Source of the DNA: Sphaerolaimus hirsutus
Taxonomy: Eukaryota > Nematoda > Chromadorea > Monhysterida > Sphaerolaimidae
Direction: 5' to 3'
Length of the DNA: 64,000 bases
Assembly: GCA_964036195.1 (NCBI GenBank)
Contig: OZ038453.1
Location: forward strand, 22,406,352-22,470,351
A program made the position numbers and the translations under genes. Below the pieces are notes generated by a model. The model saw only the letters and a list, made by a program, of their open reading frames with translations. It did no database searches and was not told the DNA's origin. Shown here one piece after another: positions 20,541 to 54,100 of this stretch; positions within the stretch are counted from its first letter, which is position 1; the number at the start of each line of letters is the position of its first letter.

Positions 20541-20612
20541 ATGGTCAGAATGAGAGCGAAATCGATATCACTGCATCTAGTTTTTGTCCTTTTCACGATT
20601 GCCGTTGCGCAG
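20541..20612 (+). CDS. copy B exon 1: signal peptide
   Basis: 24 codons, MVRMRAKSISLHLVFVLFTI then AVAQ: basic N-terminus, hydrophobic core, small residues before the likely cut. Ends in phase 0. The first ATG was chosen; the M at codon 4 would also leave a signal peptide. C equivalent: 51172-51243, same protein sequence. Confidence 0.85.
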
Positions 20613-23600
20613 GTTGTTGTTTTTGTAACGCAGCTTTTACACGGTTTCAAGTGCCGATAAAAATATTACCTAAGTGAAAAAGTTTCATAATTCTGGAATA
20701 AAGTTCCATATCTGCAAGCAAAAACAGTCAAGTGTGTTCACAAGTTAAGCGTAAATACACACGTGCTGATTTGCAGATAATTTGAGCCTGTCGTTCAAGG
20801 CATAGGCGTTTGAAAACGAATTTTATTTGTTGGTTCGGTTTTTGTTTTTAAACTGAACTGACAGCTGAAGTTCATTTTCAAACGGTTATAAGTCTTGAAC
20901 GACACGCTCAAATTATCTGAAAATTGGTATGTGTGTGACCTTAACTAGTGAGTTCTAATTTCACTGCTTTTTCTTGCAGATATGGAACTTAATTCCAGAA
21001 TTATGGAACTTTGTGACCCGTTTTTTCGTCGGCACACAAAACCCTGTAAACGACCCTTAACCAGACAATTTTTGTCTTACAGAAGCCAAAATCGGAAACA
21101 GAAGACGTGAAAATCCACTATTTGCACCACAGAACGGTGGTGCAGAGTAGATTCGCAGAGACACAAGTCACCTCCAAGTTGACCAATCCAAAGGAAGAGG
21201 CAAACGAAGTCAAGTACCTTATTCAGTTGCCAAAGGATGCGTTCATTACAAATTTCACTATGTGAGTTTTGTTTTTTGGCATACTGTAAACGCTTGAAAA
21301 ATCACTTTGGATAATTAATGATTCCCCTCTTGAATGATTCTACCCTGTATGATGAGTGAGAAAAAAACAACTGCAATATGTCCATTTATATTATCTCAAC
21401 ACTCAATTCGGGTGGGGTCATTTCAAGGTGGACGTTATTTTGGGCCTGTGCCATTATGCATCTAAACACTTTATGCATTTAGCACCGGACGCATTTAACT
21501 TTACCTGGCATGCTGAAAATATGCAATGGGCGCACACACACACTAGTTTACCAACACAAAATGCTCGACCATTTTGGTAAACTGTTTTGACAAAACAGGA
21601 CGGATTTGTACGGTGCTTCGTACTGTTTTATCAAAACAGTTTACCAAAATGGTCGAGCATTTCATGTTGGTAAAATAGTGTGTGTGCTGGCAATAAAACA
21701 CATGATCATCTAATTTTACATGTGAAAATCTATAAAATGTATGAAAATTGGGAACTTTGGGTGAAATGTAGGGTAAAATTGCTGCAAAAGTGCTGCAAAT
21801 AACTAAATAGCTATGCAATTTGTGGGGGGGGGCTGTTCAGGGGAAAGTAACTTCAAAAATTTGCCTCTGGTAAAGATAGATAGCTAGGCATATGGGGGTG
21901 GGGTTAACTGCCCCCTTTCTTACCCCTGCAGGTATAATGTGTATAAATGGTCTAGATGCATAATGGGTTTAGATGCATAATAAATAGGCCTGTCCCCTTT
22001 ATTTTTACCCCAGTTTGCTAACACCAGGTGCCCATCCCAAAGTGTAAAGTGTAAAATGAAGTAACAGATGTCATGCAAAGTGTAAAAAGTCATAGAAAGT
22101 GTCAATTGTCATACTATTTCAGTAATAAAATATTTTCTTTTTGTATTGATTGACATTTAACATGACCTTTGACACTAAAATTTACACTTGACAGGGTCTG
22201 GGAGTGTCCCCTGGGGGATAATTATAGGAATGCATTCATTACCAGTTTTACTATGTGAGCTGCATTTTTCGGCTTACTGTAAATGCTTGAATAATCCCCC
22301 TTGACAAATTAATTATCCCCTCTTGAACAATTCCACTCTGTATGATGGATGGGTGAGAAAAATCAACTGCAGTATGGCTATTTATATTCTCTTAACACTC
22401 AATTTGGGTTGGGTTATTTCAAAGGGCAACTTTATTTGTTTTGCTCACACCTGGCGCCCGTTTCAGACCCCGTGAAGTGTGAATTGTCATGACAAATGTA
22501 AGTAAATGTCAACTCATACAAAGTTCAGTATATATTTTTTTCTTTTTTGTTTTGATTGACATTTGACATTATGCTTGACGGGGTCTGGGACTGCCCCCTG
22601 GTAGATAATTCTACGAAATACGGTAAAATTTACCAAATTGAAATTATCAACTAAACCAGTGCCATATCAACTTGCAGGGAGATCGATGGTGAATTGACAG
22701 TGGGGTTAGTGAAGGAAAAAGCCGCAGCCAGAGCGGTCTACGACGCCCAGAGAGCTGCGGGGAACACTGCCGGATTGGTGGAAAAGTGCGTTGGGTTGCA
22801 GTTTTTTAATATTTTGTCCTTTCATCGAGTCTGCACAAACTGTAAATGATAAAATTCAAATTATCCAATGGTAAAATCCAAAATTATCCAATCCAAAGAC
22901 CAATATGTAAAATTATGATTGTGGGGTTACCAGGTTAGTAGCGGAAAAAGCGCCATGGCCCTTTTCTGAACCCCGGTGACAAGCGCCAATGGCACCAGAG
23001 TAAAATGGCGTGAAGCACCAAAAGCACCATGGCGCTAGTGGAAGAAGCCAGCGCCAGGCCTTTTGTTCTTGTGCCGTGCAAAAAAAGGAACCAAGCACAA
23101 ATGTTACATGACTCTTTATATGGGTGTGGGTCCATGCGAAGTGCCAAAGGCACCACAACAAAATAGTGTCAAGCAGAGAAGCGCCAGAAGCGGCATGACA
23201 CTTTTCCGTTTTTACACCTGGTGCTAGCACGCAAAAAGATGCCTGTTTTTTGGCAATTTGCATCAATGATCACTAATCAGGTATAATAAAAAATAATCAG
23301 CTATATTGATTTTTGCCACAGTATGAATGTGTGCACACTTCGATACTACCCAGTCATTCTTCACACATCACACATTACCTTCACATCACTTCACCAGCTA
23401 CCCACATTTCAGTGTCCGAGAGAGTAACATATTCGAAATCTCCACCAACGTGGCAGCCAACGGCAAGGCCACCTTCAACATGACCTACCAGCAAGTGCTC
23501 ACCAGGGTGCATGGCGTTTACAAGGTTCTGTCCATCATTGATACGCAACAGGTGAGCTGGGTGGGAGGATACGTTTGTTTTAAGTTATACTGTAGTTCCT

Positions 23601-26600
23601 CGGAATACCCCTGCTCGAATTGACCACCCGTCGAAATATCCCCCCACCTTGAATGATGTAATATGTATGCAATGTACAGATGTAATTGCTGCTACTTTAC
23701 AGCAAGGACTCCGTGCGCATCTAAACTCGGTGCCCATCTACCGGTAACCCGGTGCCCATCTAGACTCGGTGCGCATGTAGAGCCACCTGGATGGGCACCG
23801 GGTAACATGCACACCGGGTTTACATGCGCACCGGGTTGTAGCGCCAGATGGGCACTATGGGCGGGTTACATCGCAACTATGGTGGCAAACACAAAATGAC
23901 ACAAAACACTATAAACTCGGGGGACTTTATGGCTTACATTTTTGCCCGAGAAAACACTCCAGCGGTGCGATACGTCATACATTTTTTGTCTCACTCGTTC
24001 CGGTGTGAAATACAGAAAAGATAATCGTTGAAATATTTGATCGATTGATTTGATAATGTCGGAGTGAAAGGCCACTTTTCGTACCTGATTCTAAAGGACA
24101 TTTTCTAAACGTTTCGCCGCATAGCCAACAATATTTCTGGCTTCCGGAAACGCAACATATTTGCATATTGATATACCTAAATATTTACAACCCACTGTGC
24201 ACCTTTTTTCTACTGTATTTAAGATGTATCGCATTTCGCTGTTCAGCACATAACATTTAATGTCACTTACGCTCAGCGAAGCGAAACATAAGTGGAACAA
24301 ACTTGTAGAGTTTCATGTCTGCCGAGTGCCGAGTTTACCATTATTTGCCTTTGTGTTTGCCGCCCGGTGCAGCGTCAGGGGTAGTAATGTAAAAAGCGCC
24401 AGAGTTTTGGCGTGTGGGCGCCATGGCGCTTTTCTCATGTGCGGCGAAAGGCGCCAATGGGGCCAGATGATTTTAGCGCCAAGAGCCATGGCGCTTTTAC
24501 AGACCATGGCCCCAAGCGTTGTATTACACTTTGTATTCAAATGACAGGGTCTTTTACATGACATATGACATTTGACACTTTACAGAGTCCTTACAGGTAG
24601 GGCTCGAAACTCGATTTTTTTCAAACTCGAGTTCGAGTCAGAGCCCCAAAACTTTTTCCGGTCGAGTCGGCGAGTCGAGTCGGACGAGTCAGTGAAAAAT
24701 CGAGTCGAGTCAGGCAGAAATGTCGAGTCTCGAGTCGAGTAGGGTTCAAACGATATGACTTTTCGATATCGATATTCGATATTCGATATTGAAAAATGGT
24801 CGATATTCGATATTCGATATTTCAATATTTTCGATATTCAATATTGCGATATGCTTTTGGTATAGCAAGGCATATTTCAAGTGGCATATTGTATTTTCAT
24901 GTGGTTGCAGACATTGTTAATCATCTCTTTACTGAAATATGAATGGTACAAGTGATTTTAACAAGCTTTACATCACTCAATGGTAGAAAATGGAAGAAAA
25001 ACATGATGAATCAAAGTGTATCAGACAAATAACAATTGGTAGGTATTACAGTTCATCCTTATAACCTAATTGCTTAAGGGCATGTTGCAAAAAAAGTATA
25101 TCAGCATTTTCTGGCTTCAAATTTAGCACTCCAACAACAATGACATTATAAATACTGTACTTTTACTCATCAAATACGATACTATAAGCACATCAGATCA
25201 ACCATAAACATCTCAAAATGAAAATGAAATATAAATTTGGGGACACAATACAGGTTCGATATATCGAAAAAATGGTCGATATTCGATATTCGATATTTTT
25301 TAAAAATTTTCGATATCGATATTCGATATTCGATATTTTTTCAAAATTTTCGATATCGATATTCGATATTCGATATTAAAAAATGGTCGATATCCGATAT
25401 TCGATATTCGATACGATATATCGTTTGAACCCTAGAGTCGAGTCGGATGTATTACCTTCTGATAGGATGCTTGTGGAAATTTTAGATACTGGTTTCTTTA
25501 CTAATGTTTTCCCACACACTTGATGAAGTAAAAAGCCAACAATTCATTTTAATATCAAGTTAGAGCAAGATGAAGCAAAAATAATAACTTTTTGTCACAC
25601 AAGTTCAGATATTGCCATAAATAAAAACAGCCTAGGGATGGAAAAATGACATATTTTTATTACTTGGTTTTTATAATAAAACAACATTTTAACATAAAAA
25701 CCAGGAAAAATGCCATCCCTCAACCAGCCAGCAAATTACAAAAGCCAATTTCAGACAAGGAATGGAAAGCAACATCCTATGTATTTATCATTGAATACAT
25801 ATGCCAAGCCAATTGATGATTAATCATGCATGTGGTGTGGAAATGAGCATTTGCGCGCAAAATTTTCAACAAATATGTTTAAAAAATCATGTCAAAATTG
25901 ATATTTTTGACATGATTGAATGGAGAACCCTGACTCGAAATTGGTGAAAATTTCGAGTCAAGTCAGGCAAAAACCTCGAGTCTCGAGTCAGGGCAATATT
26001 TTTCCGGTCGAGTCGGCCGAGTCGAGTCGGTACCCTATTTTACCCTCGAGTCACGAGTCGAGTCGAGTCGAGTCGAGTCGAGTTTGAGCCCTACTTACAG
26101 GTATTTGCCGCGCATCTGCCAGCGGCGTCATACGCTCTGCCTGCGGTCTGCCGGGGGGGGGGGACTTGTACATTGTACGGTGCGTGTGTATGATGCGCAT
26201 GTAGACCCCATGCTAAACCCAGTGCCCATGTAGACCAGTGCACATGAACAGTTGAACGCTTGAACAGCATGCGCACCGGGTCTACATGGGCACCGAGTAG
26301 AAATACATGGGCACCGAGCCTACATGCGCACTGAGTTTAGATGCGCAGACCCCCTAATTTACATCGCAGCTACAGATATACTAATTTGTGTAGATAAATA
26401 ACTAAAAACCGTGTTTGCTTGAAAAATCCCCCCTCGAATGGTCCCCCCTCAAAAAATAGTTTATGATATCATAACTTCTCAGGGGGATTTTTCCACATTA
26501 TCTAAAAAAACACATTTTCCCCACACAGACCGAGCCAGTGGCTGAAATGCTAGTAGAAATAGAAATTTTCGAAAGGGCAAACATCACAAATCTGCATGTG

Positions 26601-29600
26601 CCCGAAGTTGGGCATGGTTTGGCTGACATGGAAAATAAGGAGTTACTCGCGTCCAAACTGGAGGCTGGGGTGAATGTTTTTGAACAAACACTCGGTTCGT
26701 TGAGTTCTCAGATTTGATGCATTCTAAATATGATTGCCAAAAAATAGTCTTTGGAAACCATGCGGAAATTGGCTGCATGCATGTGGGCCAGTCCCGCAAG
26801 TCGACAAGTAAAGGGCTGTAGGGAAAGTTCTTTCCGTTTCAGGATTGTCTCGCATTGGATCGCCCTGGATGATCAGTAAGCTTTAAGCTGGTGTATAAAA
26901 GCTGGAATTTATTCAAGCATAGAGCTTTACAGCGAAATTGATTGCTAAAAGTGGTTCCTGCACCATTAAATCTCTTAATTATATCCAAAACTCAACATGC
27001 ACTATCCACCGTTTCCAAAGTTTTCGATTTTTCTATGAAATTCCAATGTAAAATCAGTTAAAAACATAAAGTTGCAGACATGTATCATAATCCAATTTCA
27101 TGTAATCAATTTCGCAGTAAAGTTTTATTCTTGAAATCAACGTCAAGCTTATATAGGTAATTCCAGCTTATATAACTTGACTTAGGTAAACCTCACATAA
27201 TTCCAGACACTCCAATGGGAGACGAACCTGAAACGGAAAGAACTTTCCCTACAGCCCAATACTTTACTTTCCTCTTGAATTTTGACTTGATTCTTGACTT
27301 TGCTCTTGAATTTTCACTTTGTCACTTGCGGAACCGGCACCAGGGGGCACTCCCAAATGTTCAATTGTGTATCCAAATCTTATGTTCAAAATTAAATTTG
27401 GATATATATGATATATAAGATAAAAAACATAATATTTGGATACGAAAACATAAGATTTTAATAGAAAAGACAAAATTTGATAAAAGTCAAGAGCAACCGC
27501 AAGAGTCAAGCCAAGAGTCAAGATTAAATGCAAATCCCTGATGCAAGGCCAAAATCCCTGATGCAAATCCAAAATGCAAGGCCCCTGAAATGCAAATCCT
27601 TCCTTCAAGAACCCTTCAATCTATGCAGACAACGGTGCGGTCAACTACAGACACATAGAGTTCAAGCCAGATGCGGACACCCAGCGCAGATTGGCGCGCG
27701 ATGCGAAGAGTGGACAAACTTCGTTGCAACTGGCTGCACTTTATGATGTGCAGAGGGGGGATAATGGGGGGACTATTGAGGTGCGTTTTGGATGAAGTGT
27801 TGGATGATAATTTTTTGGAGTTTTCTTCTTTCTTGGAACTATTTTACCTACTGAGATTTAAGTTTATAATACCAACTTTTTCACAACCTGCTTTACACCC
27901 TAATGAAATGTCTGACAGAACACACAGTTCTGAAAAACATCAATCTCTTTCTGAAAATCTAATGTTTGATATAATGAATCATTTACGATCTCCATTTTTA
28001 TCGACAGTAGTTGACATTTTCCACAACCCAGTGAACTCAAATAGATTCAATACTGATTTGTCCACACGAACCCAGGTTGTAGATGGCTACTTTGTGCATT
28101 TCTTTGCACCCAACACTGGCGAACCCGTGCCAAAACGAATTCTCTTTGTGTTGGACTATTCTGGCTCTATGAGTCTTGGCAACAAAATGGCACAGACAAG
28201 GGTTGGTGCAATTGACTTTTACACTTATTGCAAAGCGAATTTGTAATGTAGTTGAAAAAAATATATTTCACAACACAGGAAGCTGTGAAGGTTATGCTCG
28301 ATGACCTAAATGACGATGATGAATTTTCAATAATTGCTTTTGATCATTCCCCAGTTTCAATGGTTGATGGATTCTTCATTGTGAATGAGCAGGTTACAAC
28401 ACTTTTTCTCACATAAAGGCAGGGGTTTTGTAGATTTGGACGCCCGCGGGGGTTCATATAGATAGTAAATCGTTCCTGCGGAGGGATCGATAGCTGAAAA
28501 AAATTGTTTTTTTTGGGGGGGGTGGGGTTGGGGGGGGGGGTTTGGTGGGGTTTGCGGGGGTTCAAAAAATAGGCTTTTCCGAGGTATAGAAGAAAGAAAA
28601 CGGAAATAATCGCTAAAAGTAGGAGAAAAACAGCTAAAAATAGGTATATAAGTACATATAAACACCTTCCCGGTCAGGTCCGGCACCCTATTTTTGATTT
28701 CACTCCAGGTGCCCTAACTCCCGCTGCGGGCGGAGTAGAAAGCTGAAAATGGGGGGTATATACTTGCAACCCCCCTCTACGCTGCATCAATGGGGGAGGC
28801 CACGGCGACCCGCTACAGGGTGGGTCGCCGTATATGCAAAGTTTTTTTTGGCTTTTTGAGTGTCCCGCACAGGTCCGGCACCCACTTTATTGCGACACTT
28901 CAGATGCCGTACCTCCAGCTGCGGGGGTGATAAAGAGCTGCAATTTGGGGGGAGTATAGACAACACCCTCCCCTACTATACCCCCTCAGGGCGCCCTCCG
29001 GCGACTCACTAAATTCCCGGTTGCCGCGGTTAAATTTCATTTCATTGAAAAAATCAACTGTCCCATTGGGTCCGTCACTGGTTTCTTGTTCAAAAATGAA
29101 CACAGTAGTGTAGAAAATGCGCGATTAATGTGAAATTTAGCGATTAAAGATGCAATTTGATACACATATCCAAATTGCAAAATGTACCATGCATATCCAA
29201 AACTTATTTTATTTTAAAAGTTGAAAAATCACTCGCTTCGCAGGGTCTCTTTTCAAGCGATTTTGTTTCATTGAAAAAATCGACTGTCCCATTGACATGA
29301 CATTAAAAAACATGGCCACCCAATAGATGAATGACAAATAGTTCATTTTTTGGAACTTTTTTATTAGACACTTGAAGAGCTGGTTTACAATACTTTAAAG
29401 GGAAGGGTTTGATGATTAAAGTTATGTAAAGAACCATACCTCTAAAATGCCTGCATTGCAAAATTTACTTAGGGGGAATTTTATGACACCATAATGACAT
29501 CATTTCAGGAACAAAAATTTACAAAATTTACACTTTGAAATTCCCCCCAAGTAAATTTTGCAATGCAGGCGTTTTAAAGGTGTGGTTCTTCACATAACTT

Positions 29601-32600
29601 TAATCATCAACCCCTTCACTTTAAAGTATCGTAAACCAGCTTATCAAGTGTCTAATAAAAAAGTTCCAAAAAATGAATTATTTGTCATCCATCTATTGGG
29701 TGGTTTTTCAGAGAATAAAAGAATATTTTAGAAATTTTTCACATTAATCTCACATTTTTGAATAGTGTATAGTAGGGGAGGGGTGTTGGTAACACATCCC
29801 CAAAATTTTAGATTTATAGCCCTCCCACAGCTAAAAAATCAGTGGGTGCCGGACCTGTGAGGGACACCAGAAAAGCCAATAAAATTTTTGTACTTATGGC
29901 GACCCACCCTCTAAAGGGGTCGCCGCGACCCCCCAAATTCATGTGAAGTAGAGGGGGGTTCTGTCAATATTTCCCCCAAGTTTCAGCTTCTGGCGCACCA
30001 TAGAACTGGAGATAGGATGTCACAAGTGTCATAAAAAATAGGGTGCCGGACGTGACCGGGAAGGTGTTTAGTACAAAAAACAGCCAAAAATAGGCACTAC
30101 GGAACATGAATTAGAATTTTGAAGGTGAAAAACTATAAAAAGGTATGAAAATCAGCGATTTTGAGCGAAGTTGATAGATTTCTTTAAAATCGCTCCAGAT
30201 AGAGATAGCTGGCCGATTTGGGGGGTGGGGGGCTCAGCACAGCGATTCACCAACGTGCTGACAATTAGAAACAACATGGGGACAACGTGGAAACAAGGCC
30301 TTGTTTCCACGTTGTTTCGATGTGTCATTACATTGTTTCGACGCTGGGTTTGTGCGCGTCACAATTGCAGCGTGCATTAACGAGCTGCGGGACGATGTTG
30401 TCCCCACGCTGCATGTTTTGTCAACACGTGGTTTCCACGTATGGTGTCTTTGTTGTCCCCATTTTGTTTCTATATGTCAGCACGTTGGTGAATCGCTGTG
30501 CGGGGGATAGTAGGAGGGGATGCAGGGGAAGGTGACCCCCCTACTAAACCCCTGCATAAAGGTGGACCACACACTAGTTTACACATGTGTGTCAACTACA
30601 GTCTCAACTCAGACTGTGTCGCACATGTCTTTGTCAAATGCACATTGTTGAAAAGTGAATATTACGGCACATGCATTGGAAGATCATACTGTGACGCGTG
30701 AAGTCGAAATCTGAGTTGAAACAGACCTGGGGCCAGTTCCGCAAGTGGAAAAGTTAAGAGTTAAAATTTAAGAGTTGAGTAAAATGACAAATGACAAGTT
30801 ATGAATAAAGTTAAGAGTTAAGAGTTGAGTAAAATGACAAATGAATTTACCCAACTCTTAACTTTTAACTTTACTCTTAACTTATCATTTATCATTTTAC
30901 TCAACTCTTAAGTTTTAACTCTAAACTTTTCCACTTGCGGAACCGGCACCGTTTGTCACAAGTGTGAAATAATGTGTGACCCGTCAACCAGTGCAAGTCC
31001 CAGACCATGTAAAATGTCATGTGTTATGTAAAAGACTAAGTGTCAGGTGTATCCAAATCTCTTTCTATAGTATCCAAATATTGTTTGTGTTATTAAATCT
31101 TATGTTTTTACAAAATATTTGGATACAAAACTGAAGATTTGGATACTATAGAATAGGATTTGGATACAATTGACACTACAGGATTTTTTACATGACACAT
31201 GACATTTTACAGGGTCTGGGACTGCCACGAGCTCACTCGACGAGACCCACTCACCAATCAAATTACTGGAAAAATTTCAGACACTTTCCATCGCAAAATC
31301 GTGGGTGTCCACACTCGTACCATCAGGTGGAACAAACATAAATTCAGCGATGAAACGGGCACTGGAAATGTTGTATGGCAGGATCGATGAATTGAAAGAG
31401 GCGTCAGCCAAAGATAATATGCAGCCAATGATTGTGTTTATGACTGATGGAAGGGGCGGCTTGCAACCTGACGATTTGGTGGCTAATGTGAAGGTTTGTG
31501 CAAAACATTTGAAGTTTTTTTATATATGTAAAGAAAACGTGCAAAAATGTTGTCCTGCTGGCCATGACTCGAACCCGGGACCTTTGACTACGTGTGAATG
31601 TTCGAACCGACTGAGCTACCAGGAGGCCGGATTTTGCACCACTTTAACAGCAAAAATACAAATCTAAAAAGTGAGCTTTTTTCCTCAGAGTGAGACGAGA
31701 GACAGCCCAATTCCATTGCACACTGTAGCCTTTGGATCTGGAGCCGATTTTGACACACTGAGAAGAATTGCTGTTGTGACTGGAGGCCTCGCTCGCAAGG
31801 TTTGTACACTTTTTAAAATCTAACTTCAAAAAGTGTTAAATGTGCATATCGTCGTGGCGTGATAATAATGTGCACATGCAACATTTATGTCTTGATGTTG
31901 CTGTCAAAATACCCACCTCACTTTAAGAATAACAATATTGATCATGATTTTCCAAGATTTGCATGGATGAGTTATGTTTACTGTGTCAACCTAAAAACAA
32001 AAGCTTGAAGTCACCGAGTATATGTTATGTAATTGATTAGCATATCCATTCATTTATCTGCAGGTATTTGAAGACTCTGATGCACCATTGCAAATGAGAG
32101 GATTCTATGCACAAATTTCAAACCCTCTCCTGACAAATGTTGAAATTAAATATGTTAATGATACTGCAGATCCAGGTAAATTTTTTAATGACCTGTAAAA
32201 ATCTGTCATTTCAGACTTGGAAAAACAAAATTCTAATTACAAATATCCAATTTTAGAGAGCCTGATAATGCCTGACACAAGCACATATTATGATGGCAGT
32301 GAAATTGTAGTTGTGGGTAAAGTCAATGAGAAAAGAGATGTGAATGATGGGAATCTTGTGGAAACTGAGATTGTAGGTATTGATGCCCATGGTGATGAAA
32401 GAGAGTACGTTGTGAGTTCATTGCAATTCTGTAAAGTTTTTTTTAAAGTCTAGGTTTCTGCATAATTACAATTAGCCACACATGGATATACCTATATATA
32501 TATTAACAGCCATTTTGACATATTGACCATTTCCCAGTCTAAAGTGGGCTGAGTAAAAATGTGTTCAATTGGGCAATTATTGGGCATTGGGTGTTTTAAG

Positions 32601-35600
32601 GTCCTGAAAACAAGGGGGTAAAATAGTAATCAAGATATTCCCCTATATCGACGAGTAAATATATGTAGATAGTTGAGTAGCAAATGGAATGAAAGTATTC
32701 AAGTAATGTATGTATGTACGTGTAAGTAATGAATGTACTCAAAGTAAGACACCCACCCCCTAGTAGACCCCTCACTTCAAATCTCCCACGTTCTCAGGCT
32801 TGGTGCGGCACACCCACCCCGCCCTTCCCCAGAGACATTCCCATCAGGCCGGGGTACGAGTACAGGGACACCTGGCCGGAGAGGTTCCGCACTGACTTCT
32901 ATCACGCGCCTGGTGCGTAAGTAAATACCATACTTTCTCGAAATAGCCCAGGGTGTTTATTATTTCACCAGAAAATTTTTGGGGGTTTCATTCGAGTGGG
33001 TGTATGTGAGGAGTGTTATTATTTCTTCAGAAATTTTATTGATAGATTGTAGTAAAGAATAGGCTTCAACATACCCAAAACTGGTTAACCAGTGGTTATA
33101 AATGTGGCCAAATGCGATATACCGTATTTCCTCGAAATACCCCCCGGGAGGTGATTGTTTCATAGTGGTCCCGAGAGGGGGGGGGGGGTTAAACGAGGGG
33201 GGGGGGGGATTTCGAGGGGGGGGTATTTCGAGGAAATACGGTATTTAGACATATTGGCAAAATGGCTAATTGGCAGCAATTAATACATAGGTACATTGCA
33301 TACATGATGTACATTATCTAAGATGAGGGTACTTCAAGGAGGGTTTATTTATTTTATATTAGTTATTTATTTTTATTTTGAGGGGAGTCCGTTCAAGGCG
33401 GGTACTTAAAGGAAATATGGTAGATGGAAAAAAAATTCTATCAAGTCATTTGCTTCACACGTCCTCTTAAATTTGCCATGGTATTATTTTCATTTTCACG
33501 TTACACATCAGTTTGTCTAATACTTGACTATGTGAGTGATTGTGTGGCAGCAGAAAAACTGTGAATTGTGATAGGAATGAAAAAATTGAACATCATGCAG
33601 ATGCCAACAGACAAAGATCATGTGACAATAATTAATTTTGCAGGTACGGCTGGGCAATACATCGAAAGAATGTGGGCGTACAGGACAATCAGACATTTGC
33701 TGGGCCAGAGTGAGCTGACCAAGGACAACGGCTTGGACAGCACCGAGTTGAGGGCTAAGGCACTCAAGTTGAGCTTGAAGGTGAGCTACTGACATTTTAG
33801 ACATTTTGGAGCCAACTAACAAAATAAAACTGAAGTTGAACTTGATACCCAGACCAAAAACTTTGAAGAACTGACCTGATACTGAAACCAAAAAGTTTTA
33901 AGAACCAAAATCTTGATACACCAACAGTTTTTTTGTAATGAAACTCAAGAAACAGATCAAAATTTTTGAAATTCACAATTTCCTAAAAAAATGTATCTTG
34001 TGAGCCCTGGTGCCGGTTCCGCAAGTGGACAAGTTAAGAGTTAAAAGTTAAGAGTTGAGTAAAATGACAAATGGCGAGTTAAGAGTAAAGTTAAAGTTTA
34101 AGAGAAAAGTTAAAATTTAAGAGTTGAGTTAAAAGTTGAGTTAAATGTTAAGAGTTGAGTTAAATGTTAAAAGTTGAGTTAAGAGTTAAAAGTTGAGTTA
34201 AGAGTTGAGTTAAGAGTTGAGTTAAGAGTTGAGTTAAGAGTTGATAGTTTAGAGACAAGTGGAAAATGATGGTAAAAAATATAAAAAACTAAAAATGTGA
34301 AATTGGTATTGATACGGCTGTTCGCTGCCAATGTTGTATGCACGACATTTGAAAATAACGTATCCAAAAAAATTTTCGCTAAAAAAAAAACGCGGAACGT
34401 TGTTTCAAAATGGCCATGCGGGGACAAAATATGATCAAAGATCAGCGTATCGCGCTTCTGCAATGAATGACCCATTTGTCTTTTAAATCAACTTTTAACT
34501 CACCTTTTAACCTTTAACTCAACTCTTAACATTTAACTCAACTTTTGACTCAACTTTTAACCTTTAACTCAACTCTTAACATTTAACTCAACTTTTAACT
34601 CAACTGTTAAACTTTAACTCTACTTTTAACTTGCCATTTGTCATTTTACTCAACTCTTAACTTTTAACTCTTAACTTGTCTACTTGCGGAACTGGCCCCA
34701 GGTCTACTTTTTATTCGACCAAATACACTCTAAATGCAATGGGCTTTTTAAAATTTTCCAGTACAACTTTGTGACTGAACTGACTTCTCTGGTGGTTGCC
34801 CGAGATTTGGCAGAGCAAAAACAACCAGAGGAAGCTAAGGAAGAGGAATCATCAATAGCAACAGGTAAAGTTTGCTGTTTTGACACAGGCACACGGGTCT
34901 GTGCCTCTGTGCATGTTTACCCGCTGTGCATGTCAGGGGTATTCTAGATTTTGACCCTCCAGGGGGTCGGGTAGATAGCTAATCGCTCCTATGGAGGGAT
35001 AGATAGCTTGAAAAAGTTTTTTGGGGGTTCGCAGGGGTTCAATATAGGTATAGGCTTTTTCATGATGTAGAAGAAAGGTAGAAAAATTGCTTTAAGTAGG
35101 TGAAAAAATACTAAAAATGGGTATACAAGCACATATACTACCAAAAATAGCTGAAAATAAACAATAAAACACACAAACTAGTGATTTTGAATGTGAAAAT
35201 CTATAAAAAGGTGTGAAAATTAGCGATTTTGAGTGAAAATTGTGGTATACATGCACAGCGGGTAAACATGCACAGAAGGTCTCAGTGAGGCACACTGCAT
35301 CTGTGCAGCGCAGGACCAGTGCACAAGTAAACTCGGTGCACAAGTAACAATGTCCGGTGCCAATGTAGACACCGTGCTTAAGTATGGCCCCATGCTAAAC
35401 TGAATGAGCAAACAATTGTGCACATTTTGGTACAGGTGGCGCCTATTGTGCTCTTTACACAGGGCATGTAAAGCGCGCATAAGAAAAAACAATCCAGGCC
35501 AAACTCAGTTATAATTGGCGGCCTGGAGAGGCAACATTGTTAGGGGGATGCTCCCATAGCAGCGTGGGGGATGCTACGGGTGCCCCCTCTGGGGTGCAGG

Positions 35601-37256
35601 TCGACAACACCTGGGGCTATGCCCACACAGAGCGGTTTGACCCTCCTTCACTCAAGGGCTGAGAAAACAGCGGTAATCGAAAAAAATTCTCAAAAGCTGA
35701 AGTATATTTGCCAGCACTTTACTTTACTCTTGACCTTATTCTTAATTACCCACTTCAACTCAAAATACCCACTTCAACTCTAATCATCTGCACGGAAATC
35801 ATCCAATGCAGGGTTCCAAGGGGCTGCAGGTGCATCGGCTGCCCAACAATCAGGAGCCCCCCTTGGGGGAGCCCCGCCACCCCCGTCGGCACTTGGAGGT
35901 CAGTCAAAGGGCAAGAAGATAAGTGCGCCACTGCCGATGACGACTAGGTTGCCGCATACTTCAACTCACACTTGGGGCACTGCTACTACAATTTCAGGTT
36001 CATTAGTTTGGTAGGGTGTAAGTAGGGTGAGGTTGTTTTTGGAAAATGACTAAAAGAAACTGGGAGATGGGTAAAATTCATGGTTTAATTTATCTTCTAT
36101 TGTTGAAGGCAAAAAATTTACCTCCCATATTCCAGCAGCTGAAAAAAGATTTCTTTTATATTTATAATGAAAGTTATAAAGCGTTAAATTAATCCCAAAA
36201 ATAATATAATAAAATCTCTCGCATCAATCAATCTCTGGGATCAAATTAAATCCGTCAATAACCTGAATCAAACTTGAAAAATATGACATTTAATATAATT
36301 CATTTTATTTAAAGAAGTATAAATGTAAAACAAAAACAAAACAAGTTTATGTAATTCTAACAATAACCAACTCTCATCCACAGGACTTGGATTTGGAGGT
36401 AGAGGTGGAAGTAGTGGTGGAGGTAGATTTATTCCTGGTCCCACTGGAGGATTTGCTAGCGGTGATTTCATTTCTCATTTGTTGAGGCTAATTCTTTTGA
36501 TTATATCATTTCGTGTGTGGTGAGGTAAATGCTCAAAGCCAAGCCCTGGGGCAAGTCCAGTTTAAGTTCTATGTAATGTCATGTAAAAGACCCTGTAAAA
36601 TGTCAAAATTGATTCAAAATGTTTAAAATTGCAATGAAATATACAACAAATTAAAGGTGGGATGATAAGGTGTATCTTTTATACACCCCAGGTTCCACTC
36701 ATGGATCCTGTAAAGTGTCAAAACCCTGTAAAATGTCATGTGTTATGTAAAAGACCCAGTAAAATGTCATGTATCATGTAAAGTGTCAAATGTCATGAAA
36801 TAACCCTGTAATGTAATGGTGTAATGTATATCCAAAACTTTTTATTGTATCCAAATCTTATGTTTTTGTATTCAAATCTTACTTTTTGTCATAAGATTTG
36901 GATACCAAAAACATAAGATTTGGATACAAAACAGACGATTTGGGTACACCTGACACTTTAGAGGGTCTTTTACATGACATTTGACACTTTACATAGTCTG
37001 GGAGTGCCCCCAGGTGGCAGTCCCAAGCCCTGTAAAGTGTAAAGTAAAGTGTCAAATGTAAAGTAAAGTGTCAATCAAAACAAAAAAGAAAAGATTTTAT
37101 TATTGAACTTTGCATGACAATTGACACTTTACTTTACTTTTGTCATGACAATTGACACTTTACTTTGCACATGACTTTACATTTGACACTTTACTTTACA
37201 CTTTACAGGGCTTGGCACTGCCCCCAGGACTATATTCGCTTGCCATCCTTGTTTGA

Positions 37257-37289
<33 letters not shown>

Positions 37290-38735
37290 TGCCTGACAAA
37301 ACTGATGGATCAAGTCAATAGCTAATAGCCATGGCAATTTTACATCACTACAATGTACAATAAAACAATGAACAGCACAATTTTATACACAAAAATCGAG
37401 CAACAATTAATCACAGGAGACGATTTGATTGGGGATCGATGGAGGCCGCCACCTTGTCCAAAACGGGAGGGAATGTGTGTCCAGCTGGAATTTACGTCAG
37501 TTTGTCATAACAGGGAATTTGTGCACAAATTGTCTGAGAGGTGAGTGGGCAGTTGGGGTACAATCCAGCGACATTACACCCATTACGATTTAATCTACCA
37601 TATCCCATCTGAATAACAATAAAAACTTCTAATCATATTAATCACATCATTTCCCTCATTGTTCATGTCCCCTTCAGGGGGTGACCATCTATGAATATGA
37701 TATGCAAGGGTTTGAGTTTGAGACCCCTGTCACCAAATCAAATGGGAAAATGAGTCAATGAACATCAACTGACCTGAACACCCAAGTAGTCACTACTCAA
37801 GATTGGTTGAAACATAAAGTTTAACGGTTCAGACCAATCAGAAAAAACCTATTCAACAGTAGGAATGCAAGTGAATAGAATGTAGTGGACAATAACTACA
37901 ACAGCTCATTTTACTGCTCATTTCACTACTCATTTTATGGAATTGGCTCCTAAACCACATTCAGAGTTCCATAACAACATCTAACCAAACCAGTCTACAT
38001 CCACAAAACACACAGGAAAGATGGTGATGCCGTGCGGTGTGCAACCACCTGCAGCAGGGGGGACATGACGTGCACGAAGTTGCTCAGCACCGACCCGCTC
38101 AAGAATAGCACCGCTGATGCCGGCAAGGGCGTGTGCTGTCCCAAAATTGGTCGGTTGCATTGAACTGGGTTACTAAATACCTAATAGCATACTGTATTAT
38201 TGCCTCCAATTTACCAAATACACACTTTTACATTTTCTGGGGAAAAAGTATTTTGCACACATTTGATCATGAGTAAAAAATTACTTTACATTTTCTGTAC
38301 TCTACATGTCAACACGTGGCTGAACTGCTGTGTCCTGTAAAGTGTTAAGTAAAGTGTAAAATGCCAATACACATTTTATTACTGAACTGTCGATAGTTTC
38401 CATGACATTTGACAAACTTGCATGACATCTTTTATGATATTTGTCACTTTACACTTTACAGAGTCCGGTGCGTGACCGTCACTTAGTGTAGATTAATATT
38501 TACATAAATACATGGTATTTTTAGGTTCGATACATTTTTTTCAGTAAACTCAGTTTTTCTATTTTCAGACTGCACAACTGTTCAAGTGGGCAATTCTACA
38601 TCACAATTCTTTGAGGTTTTTGTCTACGTTCGAAGCATGGACAAATGTTTCAAGATGAACATCAGATCCGATGGTGGCAAAAATGACAATGTGTTTGCAA
38701 ATGTAGATGATTGCACTGTTTCCTGTGATGTGTGA
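20541..38735 (+). CDS. ITIH-like secreted VIT/VWA protein, copy B (complete, 20 exons)
   Basis: Twenty exons (each listed separately below) total 2691 bp: 896 residues plus TGA. All 19 junctions are GT-AG and phase-matched. Layout: signal peptide 1-24, VIT domain about 30-165, spacer 166-290, VWA about 291-460, ITIH post-VWA region 461-667, linker 668-729, Gly-rich 730-755, Cys-rich tail 756-896. The VWA MIDAS residues are all present: D299-x-S301-x-S303, T370 and D408. N-glycosylation sequons include NFT, NMT, NIT, NDT and NST. Vertebrate ITIHs of about 900 residues bind hyaluronan through a chondroitin-sulfate link at a DPHF site near the C-terminus. I see no DPHF here, so that chemistry is not supported. 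Confidence 0.92.
21083..21261 (+). CDS. copy B exon 2: VIT domain, first part
   Basis: Contains VKIHYLHHRTVVQSRFAETQ, SKLTNPKEEANEVKYLIQLP and ITNFTM, typical of the VIT strand order in ITIHs. Phase 0 in, phase 2 out (AT/G). C: 51714-51892. Confidence 0.9.
21533..21689. repeat. hairpin repeat in B intron 2
   Basis: Arms ACACACACACTAGTTTACCA ... and the inverse to TAGTGTGTGTGC; inner arms TGCTCGACCATTTTGGTAAA and its inverse. Absent from C. Confidence 0.6.
22020..22215. repeat. GTAAAATGTCAT-word hairpin element
   Basis: Words GTAAAGTGTAAAATG and GTCATGCAAAGTGTAAAAAG on the left and CATTTAACATGACCTTTGAC plus CAGGGTCTGGGAGTGTCCCC on the right. The same family is seen at 12440-12550, 16000-16115, 22455-22605, 30985-31225, 36580-37230, 38330-38475, 43965-44125 and 44690-44760. 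Confidence 0.5.
22225..22440 (+). pseudogene. decayed second copy of the 3' end of exon 2 and its intron start
   Basis: 22229-22260 (AATGCATTCATTACCAGTTT, then ACTATGTGAGC) copies the exon 2 end and donor at 21236-21267, and the next 180 bp repeats intron sequence from about 21270-21440. There is no upstream acceptor or frame, so it is a duplicated exon fragment inside intron 2. Copy C does not have it. Confidence 0.6.
22678..22785 (+). CDS. copy B exon 3: VIT domain, middle
   Basis: Reads MEIDGELTVGLVKEKAAARA then VYDAQRAAGNTAGLVE, the highly conserved VIT segment (KEKAxAxxxYxxAxxxGxxAGLV). Phase 2 in and out. Donor GTGCGT; C (52862-52969) has the stronger GTGAGT. Confidence 0.92.
22937..23217. 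repeat. GCGCCATGG-word hairpin element (B); C copy at 53119-53399
   Basis: Ends CGGAAAAAGCGCCATGG and CATGACACTTTTCCG with GCGCCA/TGGCGC words throughout. Shared by B and C, so inserted before they split. Confidence 0.5.
23413..23551 (+). CDS. copy B exon 4: VIT domain, end
   Basis: VRESNIFEISTNVAANGKAT then FNMTYQQVLTRVHGVYKVL, matching the ITIH strand with F-x-x-x-Y-x-x-L-x-R. Phase 2 in, 0 out. C: 53596-53734, where the donor is the weaker GTTAGC. Confidence 0.9.
24598..26093. mobile_element. hAT-like element with GAGTC arrays, TSD CTTACAGG (B only)
   Basis: TSD CTTACAGG at 24590-24597 and 26094-26101; ends TAGGGCTCGAAACTCGA and TCGAGTTTGAGCCCTA. Subterminal arrays are GAGTCGAGTC. C has one CTTACAGG at this place (about 54771-54778) and no element, so it inserted after B and C separated. 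It contains 24740-25434. Confidence 0.88.
24740..25434. mobile_element. hAT-like element with CGATATT arrays, nested in 24598-26093
   Basis: Ends TAGGGTTCAAACGATAT and ATATCGTTTGAACCCTA, TSD GAGTCGAG at 24732-24739 and 25435-25442 (the target is itself part of a GAGTC array). Subterminal arrays are TCGATATTCGATAT. Confidence 0.82.
26529..26694 (+). CDS. copy B exon 5: VIT-VWA spacer
   Basis: TEPVAEMLVEIEIFERANIT with sequon NIT, then NLHVPEVGHGL and LEAGVNVFEQTL. Phase 0 in, 1 out. C: 55218-55383, identical protein. Placed by homology between VIT and VWA. Confidence 0.85.
26787..27585. mobile_element. element with 'CCGCAAGTCGACAAGTAAAG' ends in B intron 5
   Basis: C holds the intact copy (55467-56234): GGCCAGTCCCGCAAGTCGAC at one end and ACTTGTCAACTTGCGGGACT at the other. 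In B the right end is replaced by tandem AAATCCCTGATGCAAGGCCA-like units (27531-27580). It contains long inverted AAGCTGGAATT / AATTCCAGCTT blocks. Confidence 0.6.
27629..27780 (+). CDS. copy B exon 6: spacer before VWA
   Basis: DNGAVNYRHIEFKPDADTQR, then ALYDVQRGDNGGTIE, equivalent to the ITIH region just before VWA (Y-x-P-x-x-x-x-Q-R ... YDV). Phase 1 in, 0 out. C: 56279-56430 with LALDAKSGQISM replacing LARDAKSGQTSL. Confidence 0.88.
28076..28201 (+). CDS. copy B exon 7: VWA domain start with MIDAS DxSxS
   Basis: YFVHFFAPNTGEPVPKRILF then VLDYSGSMSLGNKM. D299, S301 and S303 form the first MIDAS loop, so metal-dependent ligand binding is possible. Phase 0 both ends. C: 56726-56851. Confidence 0.92.
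28279..28392 (+). CDS. copy B exon 8: VWA domain
   Basis: EAVKVMLDDLNDDDEFSIIA then FDHSPVSMVDGFFIVNEQ. This is the VWA helix plus strand (DDEFSIIAF) of ITIHs. Phase 0-0. C: 56929-57042, one conservative change (DDL-NED). Confidence 0.9.
28661..30068. mobile_element. 1.4-kb foldback element with TA TSD, nested (B only)
   Basis: Ends AACACCTTCCCGGTCAGGTC and inverse, flanked by TA (28659-28660, 30069-30070). C has the unfilled site CATATAGTAC at 57290-57298. The two arms, each several hundred bp, are inverses around about 29500 (for example TGCATTGCAAAATTTACTTA and its inverse). Confidence 0.82.
30237..30501. mobile_element. CACAGCG-ended element (B only)
   Basis: Inverted ends GCACAGCGATTCACCAACGT and inverse; the interior is AACGTGGAAACAAGGCCTTG-type words. 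Absent from C (GGGGGGCTTGGGGGATAG). Same family as 63063-63784. Confidence 0.7.
30729..30950. mobile_element. hairpin element of TTAAGAGTTAAA words (B only)
   Basis: Ends GGGGCCAGTTCCGCAAGTGG and CCACTTGCGGAACCGGCACC. The whole interior is AAGTTAAGAGTTAAAA on one arm and the inverse on the other. C lacks it. Confidence 0.7.
30985..31225. repeat. GTAAAATGTCAT / TATCCAAAT hairpin before exon 9
   Basis: GTCCCAGACCATGTAAAATG at the left and CATTTTACAGGGTCTGGGAC at the right, with TATCCAAATCTTATG words between. Present in C (57735-57945), ending about 55 bp before the exon 9 acceptor in both. Confidence 0.55.
31281..31493 (+). CDS. copy B exon 9: VWA domain with MIDAS Thr and Asp
   Basis: SWVSTLVPSGGTNINSAMKR (T370 of GGTN) and QPMIVFMTDGRGGLQPDDLV (D408 of TDG). 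71 codons, phase 0-0. C: 58002-58214. Confidence 0.93.
31552..31625 (-). pseudogene. degenerate tRNA-like sequence, B intron 9
   Basis: Minus strand TAGCTCAGTCGGTTCGAAC and GGTTCGAGTC boxes, 73 to 74 bases; stems only partly pair. C carries the same insertion at 58274-58347. Confidence 0.5.
31689..31799 (+). CDS. copy B exon 10: VWA domain end
   Basis: SETRDSPIPLHTVAFGSGAD then FDTLRRIAVVTGGLARK: the last VWA strand and helix. Phase 0-0. A: 101-211; C: 58411-58521 (both have N for S at residue 6). Confidence 0.9.
32064..32175 (+). CDS. copy B exon 11: post-VWA
   Basis: VFEDSDAPLQMRGFYAQISN then PLLTNVEIKYVNDTAD. Vertebrate ITIHs have the related Y/F-E-D-x-D-A-x-x-Q-L-x-G-F-Y motif. Phase 0 in, 1 out. 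A: 590-701; C: 58786-58897. Confidence 0.92.
32257..32411 (+). CDS. copy B exon 12: post-VWA beta region
   Basis: LIMPDTSTYYDGSEIVVVGK, VNDGNLVETEIVGIDAHGDE. YYxGSEIVVxG is an ITIH hallmark. A: 787-941; C: 58978-59132 (LIIPDMST, KVNDKRD). Confidence 0.92.
32798..32912 (+). CDS. copy B exon 13: W/R/Y-rich insert
   Basis: AWCGTPTPPFPRDIPIRPGY then EYRDTWPERFRTDFYHAPG, 38 codons, phase 0 in, 1 out. I see no clear counterpart in vertebrate ITIHs at this position. A: 1628-1742; C: 59522-59636. Conserved in all three copies, including the single Cys. Confidence 0.85.
33122..33241. mobile_element. 120-bp TA-type C/G-rich MITE (B only)
   Basis: Ends CCGTATTTCCTCGAAATACC and inverse, TA at 33120-33121 and 33242-33243. 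C reads GCGATATATTTAGACA at 59839-59854 with one TA: a clean empty site that fixes the TSD of this family as TA. Confidence 0.9.
33644..33780 (+). CDS. copy B exon 14: ITIH helical motif
   Basis: GTAGQYIERMWAYRTIRHLL then DSTELRAKALKLSLK, matching the vertebrate H-x-E-R-L-W-A-Y-L-T-I-x-x-L-L motif. A: 2551-2687; C: 60250-60386. GQSELT in B is DQSELS in A and DQSGLS in C. Confidence 0.92.
34009..34699. mobile_element. 691-bp hairpin of TTAAGAGTTGAG words (B only)
   Basis: Ends GGTGCCGGTTCCGCAAGTGG and CTACTTGCGGAACTGGCCCC; arms of GTTAAGAGTTGAGTTAAAAG words and their inverse. C lacks it (GAGCCCTGATCTACTTA). Larger relative of 30729-30950. Confidence 0.75.
34762..34864 (+). CDS. copy B exon 15: end of ITIH core, acidic
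   Basis: YNFVTELTSLVVARDLAEQK then QPEEAKEEESSIATG. FVTxLTSxxV is the last ITIH motif recognised. Phase 0 in, 1 out. A: 2970-3075 (one codon longer); C: 60673-60775. Confidence 0.9.
34895..35287. mobile_element. hAT-like element, TSD AGGCACAC (B only)
   Basis: AGGCACAC at 34887-34894 and 35288-35295; C has one copy at 60798-60805. Subterminal inverse CTGTGCATGTTTACCCGCTG, the same as 3351-4424. It starts 31 bp after the exon 15 donor. Confidence 0.85.
35812..35997 (+). CDS. copy B exon 16: P/Q/G-rich linker
   Basis: GFQGAAGASAAQQSGAPLGG, a PPPP stretch, then a basic patch and THTWGTATTISG. The acceptor is taken as CCAATGCAG/GGTTCC, phase 1-1, because upstream sequence homologous to the A acceptor has been replaced by ACCCACTTCAACTC repeats (35749-35780). 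In A this point reads ATGCGG, with no AG. The start is the least certain boundary of copy B. Confidence 0.65.
36384..36461 (+). CDS. copy B exon 17: Gly-rich
   Basis: GLGFGGRGGSSGGGRFIPGP then TGGFASG, 26 codons, phase 1-1. Only one such exon is present in B. Arg and Ser break the Gly run, unlike copy A. Confidence 0.85.
36580..37230. repeat. GTAAAGTGTCAAATG hairpin elements in B intron 17
   Basis: Two adjacent hairpins: about 36580-37010 (with TATCCAAATCTTATG words) and about 37015-37229 (ends GGCAGTCCCAAGCCCTGTAA and inverse). A (TG)n tract follows at 37257-37283. Confidence 0.5.
37417..37540 (+). CDS. copy B exon 18: Cys-rich tail, part 1
   Basis: RWRPPPCPKREGMCVQLEFT then SVCHNREFVHKLSER, three Cys. 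Phase 1 in, 2 out. A: 8636-8759, whose start is DYESNGGSWRPPPC. A has compensating small indels before RPPPC that keep frame. Confidence 0.85.
38016..38149 (+). CDS. copy B exon 19: Cys-rich tail, part 2
   Basis: AVRCATTCSRGDMTCTKLLS then DAGKGVCCPKI, five Cys including a CC pair; sequon NST (NTT in A). Phase 2 in, 1 out; donor GTCGGT is weak, A has GTATGT. A: 9853-9986. Confidence 0.85.
38569..38735 (+). CDS. copy B exon 20: Cys-rich tail, part 3, stop
   Basis: DCTTVQVGNSTSQFFEVFVY, DKCFKMNIRSDGGKNDN, then DDCTVSCDV and TGA. Four Cys, likely beta-rich. A: 12640-12806 with Y for F and E for A. The domain is not one I recognise. Confidence 0.88.
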
Positions 38736-43531: not shown

Positions 43532-43551
43532 CTGGGGTTAGTGATGGAATA

Positions 43552-48181: not shown

Positions 48182-48225
48182 GACAATTTCACGTCACTTA
48201 AACATGACAAATGGTAGAATACTTA

Positions 48226-51171: not shown

Positions 51172-54100
51172 ATGGTCAGAATGAGAGCGAAATCGATATC
51201 ACTGCATCTAGTTTTTGTCCTTTTCACGATTGCCGTTGCACAGGTTGTTGTTTTTGTAACGCGGCTTTTACACGGTTTCAAGTGCCGATAAAAATATTAC
51301 CTAAGTGAAAAAGTTTCATAATTCTGGAATAAAGTTCCATATCTGCAAGCAAAAACAGTCAAGTGTGTTCACTAGTTAAGCGTAAATACACACGTGCTGA
51401 TTTGCAGATAATTTGAGCCTGTCGTTCAAGGCATAGGCGTTTGAACACTAATTTTAGTTGTCGGTTCGGTTTTTGTTTTTAAACTGAACTGACAGCTGAA
51501 GTTCATTTTCAAACGGTTATAAGTCTTGAACGACACGCTCAAATTATCTGAAAATTGGTATGTGTGTGACCTTAACTAGTGAGTTCTAATTTCACTGCTT
51601 TTTCTTGCAGATATGGAACTTCATTCCAGAATTATGGAACTTTCTGACCTGTTTTTTCGTCGGCACACAAAACCCTGTAAACGACCCTTAACAAGACAAT
51701 TTTTGTCTTACAGAAGCCAAAATCGGAAACAGAAGATGTGAAAATCCACTATTTGCACCACAGAACGGTGGTGCAGAGTAGATTCGCAGAGACACAAGTC
51801 ACCTCCAAGTTGACCAATCCAAAGGAAGAGGCAAACGAAGTCAAGTACCTTATTCAGTTGCCGAAGGATGCATTTATTACCAATTTCACTATGTGAGTTG
51901 GGTTTTTTGGCATACTGTAAACGCTTTAAAAGTCAATTTGGATAATTAATGATTCCCCTCTTGAATGATTCTACCCCTACCATTATAAAATATGATCACA
52001 TTATGTACATATTTACATACTATACATGCATATCTTATCTTGTTTAGTTTAACTGAATTTATGTGCATTCAACCGCTTTGCTGAAAAAAACAAAAACTCA
52101 AAAAAACTTTTCTGTGTTTCCGTGTTTCTGTGTTTCTGTGTTCTCCAAAAAAAAACTCATTTGAGTTTTGAGTTTTTCAAAATTTATGAGTTTCCGTGTT
52201 TCTGTGTAAAACAAAAACACAGAAACTCAATGAGTTTCTGTGTTCAATTTCTGTGTTTTTTTCCATCATTGTGTATACTACGGTTACTTTACACCTTGCA
52301 CGCGTGGTTCCCGCTGGTAGTGTGCCAACGATGGTTAGCGCCTGCGAGTTTCATAAAAAGATGACAAAATTGATTGTTGTTGTAATGTTATTCATTAACA
52401 TATTCACATCGATGAATTTTTTTCATCTTTTTACGGAAATCGCATGACTTAACAATCATTGGCACGCTTCCAACACGAGACATAAATCAGTGCGAGGGCA
52501 GAGTATCATGTACGCCAAGTATATGATGGGTGAGAAAAATCAACTGCAGTATGGCTATTTATATTCTCTTAACACTCAATTTGGGTTGGGTTATTTCAAA
52601 GGGCAACTTTATTTGTTCCATAGCTTGCTCACACCTGGCGCTCATTTCAGTCCCCGTGAAGTGTGAATTGTCATGACAAATGTAGGTAAATGTAAAGTCA
52701 TACAAAGTTCAGTATAATTTTTTTTCTTTTTTGTTTTGATTGACATTTGACATTATACTTGACGGGGTTTGGGACTACCCCCTGGGTGATAATTCTACGA
52801 AATACGGTAAAATTTACCAAATTGAAATCATCAACTAAATCATTGCCATATGAACTTGCAGGGAGATCGATGGTGAATTGACAGTTGGGTTAGTGAAGGA
52901 AAAAGCCGCAGCCAGAGCGGTCTACGATGCCCAGAGAGCTGCGGGGAACACTGCCGGACTGGTGGAAAAGTGAGTTGGGTTGCAGTTTTTTAATATTTTG
53001 TCCTTTCATCAAGTCTGCACCAACTGTAAATGATAAAATTAAAATTATCCAATGGTAAAATCCAAAATTATCCAATCCAAAGACCAATATGTAAAATTAT
53101 CATTGTGGGGTTACCAGGTTAGTAGCGGAAAAAGCGCCATGGCCCTTTTCTGAATCCCGGTGACAAGCGCCAATGGCACCAGAGTAAAATGGCGTGAAGC
53201 GCCAAAAGCACCATGGCGCTAGTGGAAGAAGCCAGCGCCAGGCCTTTTGTTCTTGTGCCGTGCAAAAATAGCACCAAGCACAAATGTTCCATGACTCTTT
53301 TCATGGCTGTGGGTCCATGCGAAGTGCCAAAGGCACCACAACAAAATAGTGTCAAGCAGAGAAGCGCCAGAAGCGGCATGACACTTTTCCGTTTTTACAC
53401 CTGGTGCTAGCACGCAAAAAGATGCCTGTTTTTTGGCAATTTACATCAATGATCACTAATCAGGTATAACGAAAAAAAATCAGCTATACTGATTTTTGCC
53501 ACAGTATGAATGTGTGCACACTTCGATACTACCCAGTCATTCTTCACACATCACACATTACCTTCACATCACTTCACCAGCTACCCACATTTCAGTGTCC
53601 GAGAGAGTAACATATTCGAAATCTCCACCAACGTGGCAGCCAATGGCAAAGCCACTTTCAACATGACCTACCAGCAAGTGCTCACCAGGGTGCATGGGGT
53701 TTACAAAGTTTTATCCATCATTGATACACAACAGGTTAGCTGGGTGGGAGGATACGTTTGTTAAAAGTTATATTGTGGTTCCTCGAAATACCCCTGCTCG
53801 AATTGACCCCCCTCGAAATATCCCCCAACCTTGAATGATGTAATTACACCATGTATGCAATGTACAGGTGTAATTGCTGCTAATTTACAGCAAGGACTCC
53901 GTGAGCATCTAAACTCGGTGCCCATCTACCGGTAACCAGGTGCCCATCTAGACTCAGTGCGCATGTAGAGCCACCTGGATGGGCACCGGGTAACATGCAC
54001 ACCGGGTTTATATGCGCATCGGGTTGTAGCGCCAGATGGGCACTATGGGCGGGTTACATCGCAACCATGGTGGCAAACACAAAATGGCACAAAACACTAT

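Follow-up and report, generated by a model that had tools for sequence, protein, structure and literature searches.

The question raised by this locus is what kind of tail follows the ITIH-like core of the proteins that it encodes, and what such a tail might do. The window, by which we mean the whole stretch of 64,000 nucleotides analysed (C4:22406352-22470351), contains gene B, the 3' part of gene A and the first 15 exons of gene C, all on the forward strand (Table 1). Gene B (20541-38735) has 20 exons and 19 introns, all with GT-AG borders, and its spliced frame remains open to a TGA, giving a product of 896 amino acids. A start of exon 9 at 31232, with a GC donor, was dropped, having introduced a stop into copy C; in the splice-consistent model, this exon begins at 31281 in B and 58002 in C, positions adopted because they provide GT-AG borders and open frames.

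Table 1. Positions of the gene parts, tail exons and repeats in the window
Feature	Position	Strand	Description
Gene A, 3' part	101..12806	+	exons 10-15 in window; exons 1-9 just outside
Gene A, linker exon	4836-5069	+	
Gene A, Gly exons	5409-5480, 6729-6806, 8069-8146	+	
Gene A, Cys exons	8636-8759, 9853-9986, 12640-12806	+	
Gene B, exons 1-15	20541..34864	+	residues 1-667: hydrophobic N-terminus, VIT, VWA with MIDAS-type motifs, ITIH heavy-chain core
Gene B, exon 16	35812..35997	+	G/A/P/S/T-rich linker with dibasic site; phase 1-1
Gene B, exon 17	36384..36461	+	Gly-rich spacer; phase 1-1
Gene B, exon 18	37417..37540	+	3 Cys, first of 8-Cys block
Gene B, exon 19	38016..38149	+	5 Cys, rest of 8-Cys block; ends CCPKI
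Gene B, exon 20	38569..38735	+	Kunitz-like, 4 Cys (843, 868, 890, 894), then stop
Gene B, candidate poly(A) signal AATAAA	38874..38879	+	
Gene C, exons 1-15	51172..60775	+	tail exons 16-20 beyond right edge of window
Interspersed repeat copies	4425-4814, 10173-10625, 16648-16918, 18297-19104		
Interspersed repeat copies	45419-45881, 46737-47013, 48215-48583, 49353-49732		

Pfam searches with gene B identified a VIT domain (E 1.5e-29) and a VWA_3 domain (E 5.1e-18). Comparison of residues 1-667 with 177,635 distinct PDB sequences gave four matches at E≤0.001: ITIH4 (9c4f; 4.1e-87), two ITIH1 entries, one of them 6fpy (1.4e-67 and 1.7e-66), and a chloride-channel-like protein (3.1e-4). The alignment with ITIH4 fell into two stretches (B 14-523 and 591-658 with ITIH4 14-500 and 541-607), and the ITIH1 alignment at 1.4e-67 spanned B 32-653. 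MIDAS-type motifs lie at residues 299 (DYSGS), 367 (SGGTNIN) and 406 (MTDGRGG). The Pfam and PDB matches bear out the ITIH plan that the preliminary description had traced as far as the FVTELTSLVV motif and, by the sequence of its core, the gene B product is a member of the ITIH family. Its hydrophobic N-terminus (MVRMRAKSISLHLVFVLFTIAVAQ) makes secretion likely.

For human HC1, the available text of PMC7170535 places residues 601-652 in a large beta sandwich, describes the native C-terminus as an unstructured peptide to which chondroitin sulfate or hyaluronan is attached, and records the removal of a 239-residue pro-domain. From the ITIH alignments and these residue positions, we infer that the core of B ends approximately where a mature heavy chain ends, with the tail occupying the place of the pro-domain.

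The B protein contains no DPHF motif, and none was found in exons 1-15 of C or in A, which was covered from exon 10 onwards; a scan for DPH[FY][IV] across 6157 stop-to-stop ORFs (minimum length 30 amino acids; window plus 23 loci) gave no match. DPHF is the site at which heavy chains are esterified to chondroitin sulfate or hyaluronan; ITIH4, to our knowledge, also lacks it. The ITIH C-terminal family was likewise absent from the Pfam matches at E≤10 for the full B protein and for the tail, in searches run without a positive control. The motif scan and these searches agree with the initial report that the tail carries neither feature; a clear match to the ITIH C-terminal domain, which would have spoken against that report, did not appear. 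Given the absence of DPHF, transfer of the gene B protein to chondroitin or hyaluronan by the known ester chemistry would be unlikely. The missing motif argues against this ester chemistry, and the adhesive role suggested earlier is not thereby shown.

Exons 16-20 of gene B are bounded by AG acceptors and GT donors, and their phases agree. In the spliced model, exons 18-20 encode residues 756-896 with 3+5+4 cysteines, 12 in all, exactly as first described. The two preceding exons had been called a P/Q/T-rich linker and a Gly-rich exon; the second label holds, but the first is loose, as the 89 residues of exons 16-17 comprise G23, A11, S10, P10, T9 and only Q4. A dibasic motif, GQS[KM]G[KR][KR], is retained in the linkers of all six copies (KGKK at residue 700 in B) and is a possible processing site. 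A surface R-R scissile bond near the C-terminal end has been described for HC1 in the available part of PMC7170535.

Introns 15/16, 16/17, 17/18 and 19/20 of gene B are all in phase 1, dividing the tail into four phase-1 units: exon 16, exon 17, exons 18+19 and exon 20. Phase-1 borders of this kind are a classical mark of exon shuffling. Gene B has one Gly exon and gene A has three, which are carried by tandem copies roughly 1.33 kb long and 95-96% alike (5070-8501). Because these exons are phase-1 units, A can accommodate all three in frame.

The eight cysteines of exons 18-19 were not assigned to any family. Neither these exons nor fragments of them matched a Pfam family at E≤10, NCBIfam had no match to either the tail or exon 20, and the only PDB match to the 8-Cys block, a pollen allergen (E 0.72), was taken as chance. 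The block has single cysteines followed by a CC pair immediately ahead of the Kunitz-like exon, an arrangement reminiscent of the Cys-rich repeats found beside Kunitz domains in other invertebrates. Exons 18-19 may resemble a Lustrin-type Cys-rich repeat; Pfam at E≤10 gave no match for this likeness. Searches for relatives of the tail in viral and prokaryote contig collections returned three and four pattern matches, respectively, none of which was confirmed by tblastn, and, given the nature of these collections, such an absence says little about animals.

Kunitz/BPTI domains have six cysteines, bridged 1-6, 2-4 and 3-5, in a fold with a beta hairpin and a C-terminal helix. The four cysteines of exon 20 would correspond, in order, to Kunitz cysteines 1, 3, 5 and 6, with a spacing of 24, 21 and 3 (24, 20 and 3 in BPTI); exon 20 has no fifth or sixth cysteine in any of the six copies. 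When searched together with the four residues upstream, exon 20 matched Pfam Kunitz_BPTI with an E-value of 0.0039 over model positions 5-52 of 53; the score of 17.8 bits, the best obtained, does not reach the curated cut-off of 21 bits. The E-value depended on the query (0.005 for exon 20 of copy A alone, 0.054 for the 140-residue B tail, 0.068 for the A tail and 0.44 for the full B protein). At E≤10, a PDB search with the B tail gave two matches, both to Kunitz proteins (0.095 and 0.38), and a profile of A and B also gave two, again both Kunitz (0.011 and 0.43). Scored with a local Kunitz profile built from eight sequences, only 6 of 5000 shuffles with fixed cysteines did as well as exon 20, whose match covers profile positions 14-53 with the loop excluded. 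In a ranking of the 6157 ORFs by this profile, the six exon-20 ORFs occupied ranks 1, 2, 3, 4, 6 and 15, which, as they are paralogues, count as nearly one observation. The best E-value in this ranking was 0.11, and unrelated ORFs came fifth (0.24) and seventh (0.29); these two, the best of the unrelated ORFs, fit the profile only in part.

It could be argued that the whole 12-Cys tail is a single, lineage-specific disulfide module and that the match of exon 20 to Kunitz domains is a chance similarity in cysteine spacing. Several results lean that way: the lack of a Pfam match for exons 18-19, the score of exon 20 below the cut-off, and the behaviour of shuffled sequences in Pfam. Of ten Cys-fixed shuffles, none matched Kunitz, and two matched unrelated families by chance (E 0.058 and 0.21); the A tail itself had a chance-like match to viral E7R (E 0.096), and E-values as weak as these therefore carry little weight. 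Structure prediction and profile comparison, which the preliminary description had named as a means of defining the tail, were carried out with AlphaFold2 on two sequences and with hhalign, and did not support a Kunitz fold. The hhalign probability for exon 20 against three Kunitz sequences was 1.2%, over 16 columns. The AlphaFold2 model consisted of strands only (pLDDT 71, pTM 0.48), with no Kunitz C-terminal helix, and Foldseek with this model found no Kunitz protein among the best 50 of 311 matches (best E 0.37). The two input sequences are near-identical, leaving AlphaFold with little to work with. Against a single module stand the PDB sequence matches, which are exclusively to Kunitz proteins, the rarity with which shuffles reach the observed score, and the fact that exon 20 forms a phase-1 unit of its own. 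We consider the single-module explanation somewhat unlikely, and exon 20 is probably a degenerate Kunitz domain. The label of an unrecognised 12-cysteine module is not supported in that form, given the Pfam E-value and the shuffles for exon 20, and the most likely composition of the tail is an 8-Cys block followed by a 4-Cys Kunitz-like domain.

We then considered whether a domain of this type could inhibit proteases. The position of Kunitz Cys14 is occupied by Thr852 in gene B and P1 is Ser853; an N-glycosylation sequon (Asn850-Ser-Thr) lies in the reactive loop, beside P1. In the alignment of the A and B profile with Kunitz sequences, the position of Cys38 is taken by Asp. With a serine at P1 and an adjoining sequon, trypsin inhibition by the exon-20 domain appears unlikely. 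Kunitz peptides with two disulfides do exist (anntoxin and conkunitzin-S1), and the accessible text of PMC3721222 lists anntoxin among trypsin inhibitors; loss of the bridge is thus not enough by itself to rule out inhibition. The heavy chain and its Kunitz-like domain might, on this basis, form a protease-regulating unit on one chain, a single-chain inter-alpha-inhibitor acting as bikunin does. The presence of both parts in one polypeptide and the example of anntoxin are consistent with such a unit, but the serine at P1, the sequon in the loop and the loss of both Cys14 and Cys38 make it very unlikely. A binding or structural role, rather than inhibition, would be the better guess for this domain.

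All 12 tail cysteines are conserved between A and B. The preliminary description took this as a sign of selection on a disulfide-bonded fold; the alignment confirms the conservation itself, but we rejected it as a test of selection, the probability of sparing every cysteine by chance being 0.22 with 16 differences in 140 residues and 0.37 with 10 in 133. As cysteine sharing is weak evidence, we replaced it with codon counts and with the six tail copies read. The A versus B comparison gave a pN/pS of 0.27 over the 140 codons of the tail (Fisher 6e-5), and of 0.185 once the seven variable first codons were removed (Fisher 9e-6). The values were 0.21 for exons 18-19 (Fisher 2e-4) and 0.126 for exon 20 (Fisher 0.016); by comparison, core exons 10-15 gave 0.13 and the linker exon 0.40. 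The 12 cysteines were intact in all six tail copies (A, B, C, E, F and G), which are close paralogues and count as nearly one observation. The tail has thus been under purifying selection between A and B, and this part of the earlier claim stands on the codon counts and the copies.

A search of the intron-rich genome (348.5 Mb, 762 contigs) for the VIT domain gave 15 exon matches, 12 of them on C4, two on C6 and one on C3. Flanking copies E and G matched all 20 exons. Copy D was represented by exons 1-3 only, at a locus containing 200 N, and copy F by exons 9-20, exons 1-8 not being found; both appear to be broken or misassembled members of the array. The further VIT-containing places, at C6:20066794 and C3:7328090, have diverged from the array; weak exon-20-like stretches at these ITIH-like genes looked like repeats or chance and were discarded. 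In the window and the flanking regions examined, every one of the six copies found carries its tail next to core exons and in the same orientation. Exons 16-20 could be taken for a separate gene downstream of the heavy-chain gene, the exon 15-16 join being predicted from the genomic sequence, but the in-frame passage from exon 15 to 16 in both A and B and the same-strand arrangement in six of six copies render such an artefact of the gene model highly improbable.

Exons and introns of the array tell discordant histories. Across eight short introns, B and C are unlike at 73 of 2389 sites (3.1%), but their exons 1-15 diverge by 12.9% at synonymous sites. The introns of B and E differ by about 12-20% where they can be aligned. 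By raw counts, B is nearer to E than to C in six of 15 exons (2, 3, 4, 7, 9 and 14), exon 12 is tied, and B is nearer to C in the other eight. Exons 4, 7 and 9 show the largest gap, with 2/139, 3/126 and 6/213 differences between B and E, and 8/139, 8/126 and 14/213 between B and C. This pattern, observed post hoc, suggests exon-limited gene conversion.

Other features were recorded in the window. An intron of gene A contains a tRNA-like sequence (470-543, reverse strand; Rfam RF00005, 32.8 bits). Similar intron stretches were seen by eye near 31545-31632 and 58270-58350, the RF00005 match being confined to the A copy, and ARAGORN found no tRNA gene; these stretches are possibly a tRNA-derived repeat. 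An interspersed repeat of about 260-470 bp is present in several copies and in both orientations (Table 1), with ends, as judged by eye, like TACCGTATTTCCTCGAAATACCCCCC. Between B and C, on the reverse strand (41500-45100), several open stretches look like exons of another gene; their joined translation had no Pfam match at E≤1.

The explanation that we prefer, with moderate confidence, is that this array encodes probably secreted ITIH-type heavy chains in tandem, in which the pro-domain has been swapped for a composite tail with a Kunitz-type domain that most likely does not inhibit proteases. ITIH-type heavy-chain genes would have been duplicated in tandem, their products being secreted, and the C-terminal pro-domain would have been replaced through exon shuffling at phase-1 introns. 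The new tail would comprise, in order, a flexible dibasic linker, a Gly-rich spacer, the 8-Cys block and the degenerate Kunitz-type domain. By analogy with human HC1, the integrin-like core may bind extracellular partners through its metal site, and the disulfide-rich tail, held on its spacer, could serve as a second binding or cross-linking head, either remaining on the chain or being released by cleavage at the dibasic site. An architecture of this type would bear on the roles of heavy chains outside DPHF and hyaluronan chemistry, and the array supplies a defined tail for expression and testing.

With the ITIH heavy chains of known structure, ITIH4 (9c4f) and ITIH1 (6fpy), gene B shares the VIT domain, the VWA domain with MIDAS-type motifs and the segment following it. 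It differs from them in having neither DPHF nor a detected ITIH C-terminal domain, and in ending with a spacer, an 8-Cys block and a Kunitz-like exon. The insect ITIH4 of Nilaparvata lugens, NlITIH4, is an invertebrate VIT-VWA protein with a signal peptide; the available part of PMC8951764 describes only the signal peptide, VIT and VWA, whereas gene B has the added tail. No description of a VIT-VWA protein with a Cys/Kunitz-like tail was found in the searches made of open-licence papers, which is not proof of absence, and what is new at the level of sequence is an ITIH core with a tail that none of the searched libraries names as a whole.

The Kunitz domains of bikunin/AMBP (1bik) and BPTI share four cysteines with exon 20 and also, ahead of the final two of these, a run rich in Asn with a Phe (NDNVF). 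Exon 20 lacks Cys 2 and 4 (the 14-38 bridge) and a basic P1, has one residue more between Cys 3 and 5, and is encoded in a heavy-chain gene. A four-Cys Kunitz layout like that of exon 20 is found in anntoxin (2kcr, the second PDB match of the tail, E 0.38) and conkunitzin-S1, according to the accessible text of PMC3721222; these are free peptides, whereas exon 20 is a domain of a heavy chain, and their function is not transferable.

The comparison with inter-alpha-inhibitor itself concerns the way in which the two parts are joined. In vertebrates, bikunin, which is a Kunitz protein, and the heavy chains come from different genes, and a chondroitin chain connects them. In this nematode array, the link between heavy chain and Kunitz domain would instead have arisen by direct gene fusion. 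We think it quite unlikely that the gene is a full single-chain counterpart of inter-alpha-inhibitor, with a Kunitz light-chain module attached without chondroitin and parted from the heavy chain at the dibasic site. If it were, the pairing of heavy chain and Kunitz domain would either have been invented here independently or survive from an earlier, fused condition. A gene that places a heavy-chain core and a Kunitz-like domain on the same polypeptide would in any case inform the question of how the two came to be partners.
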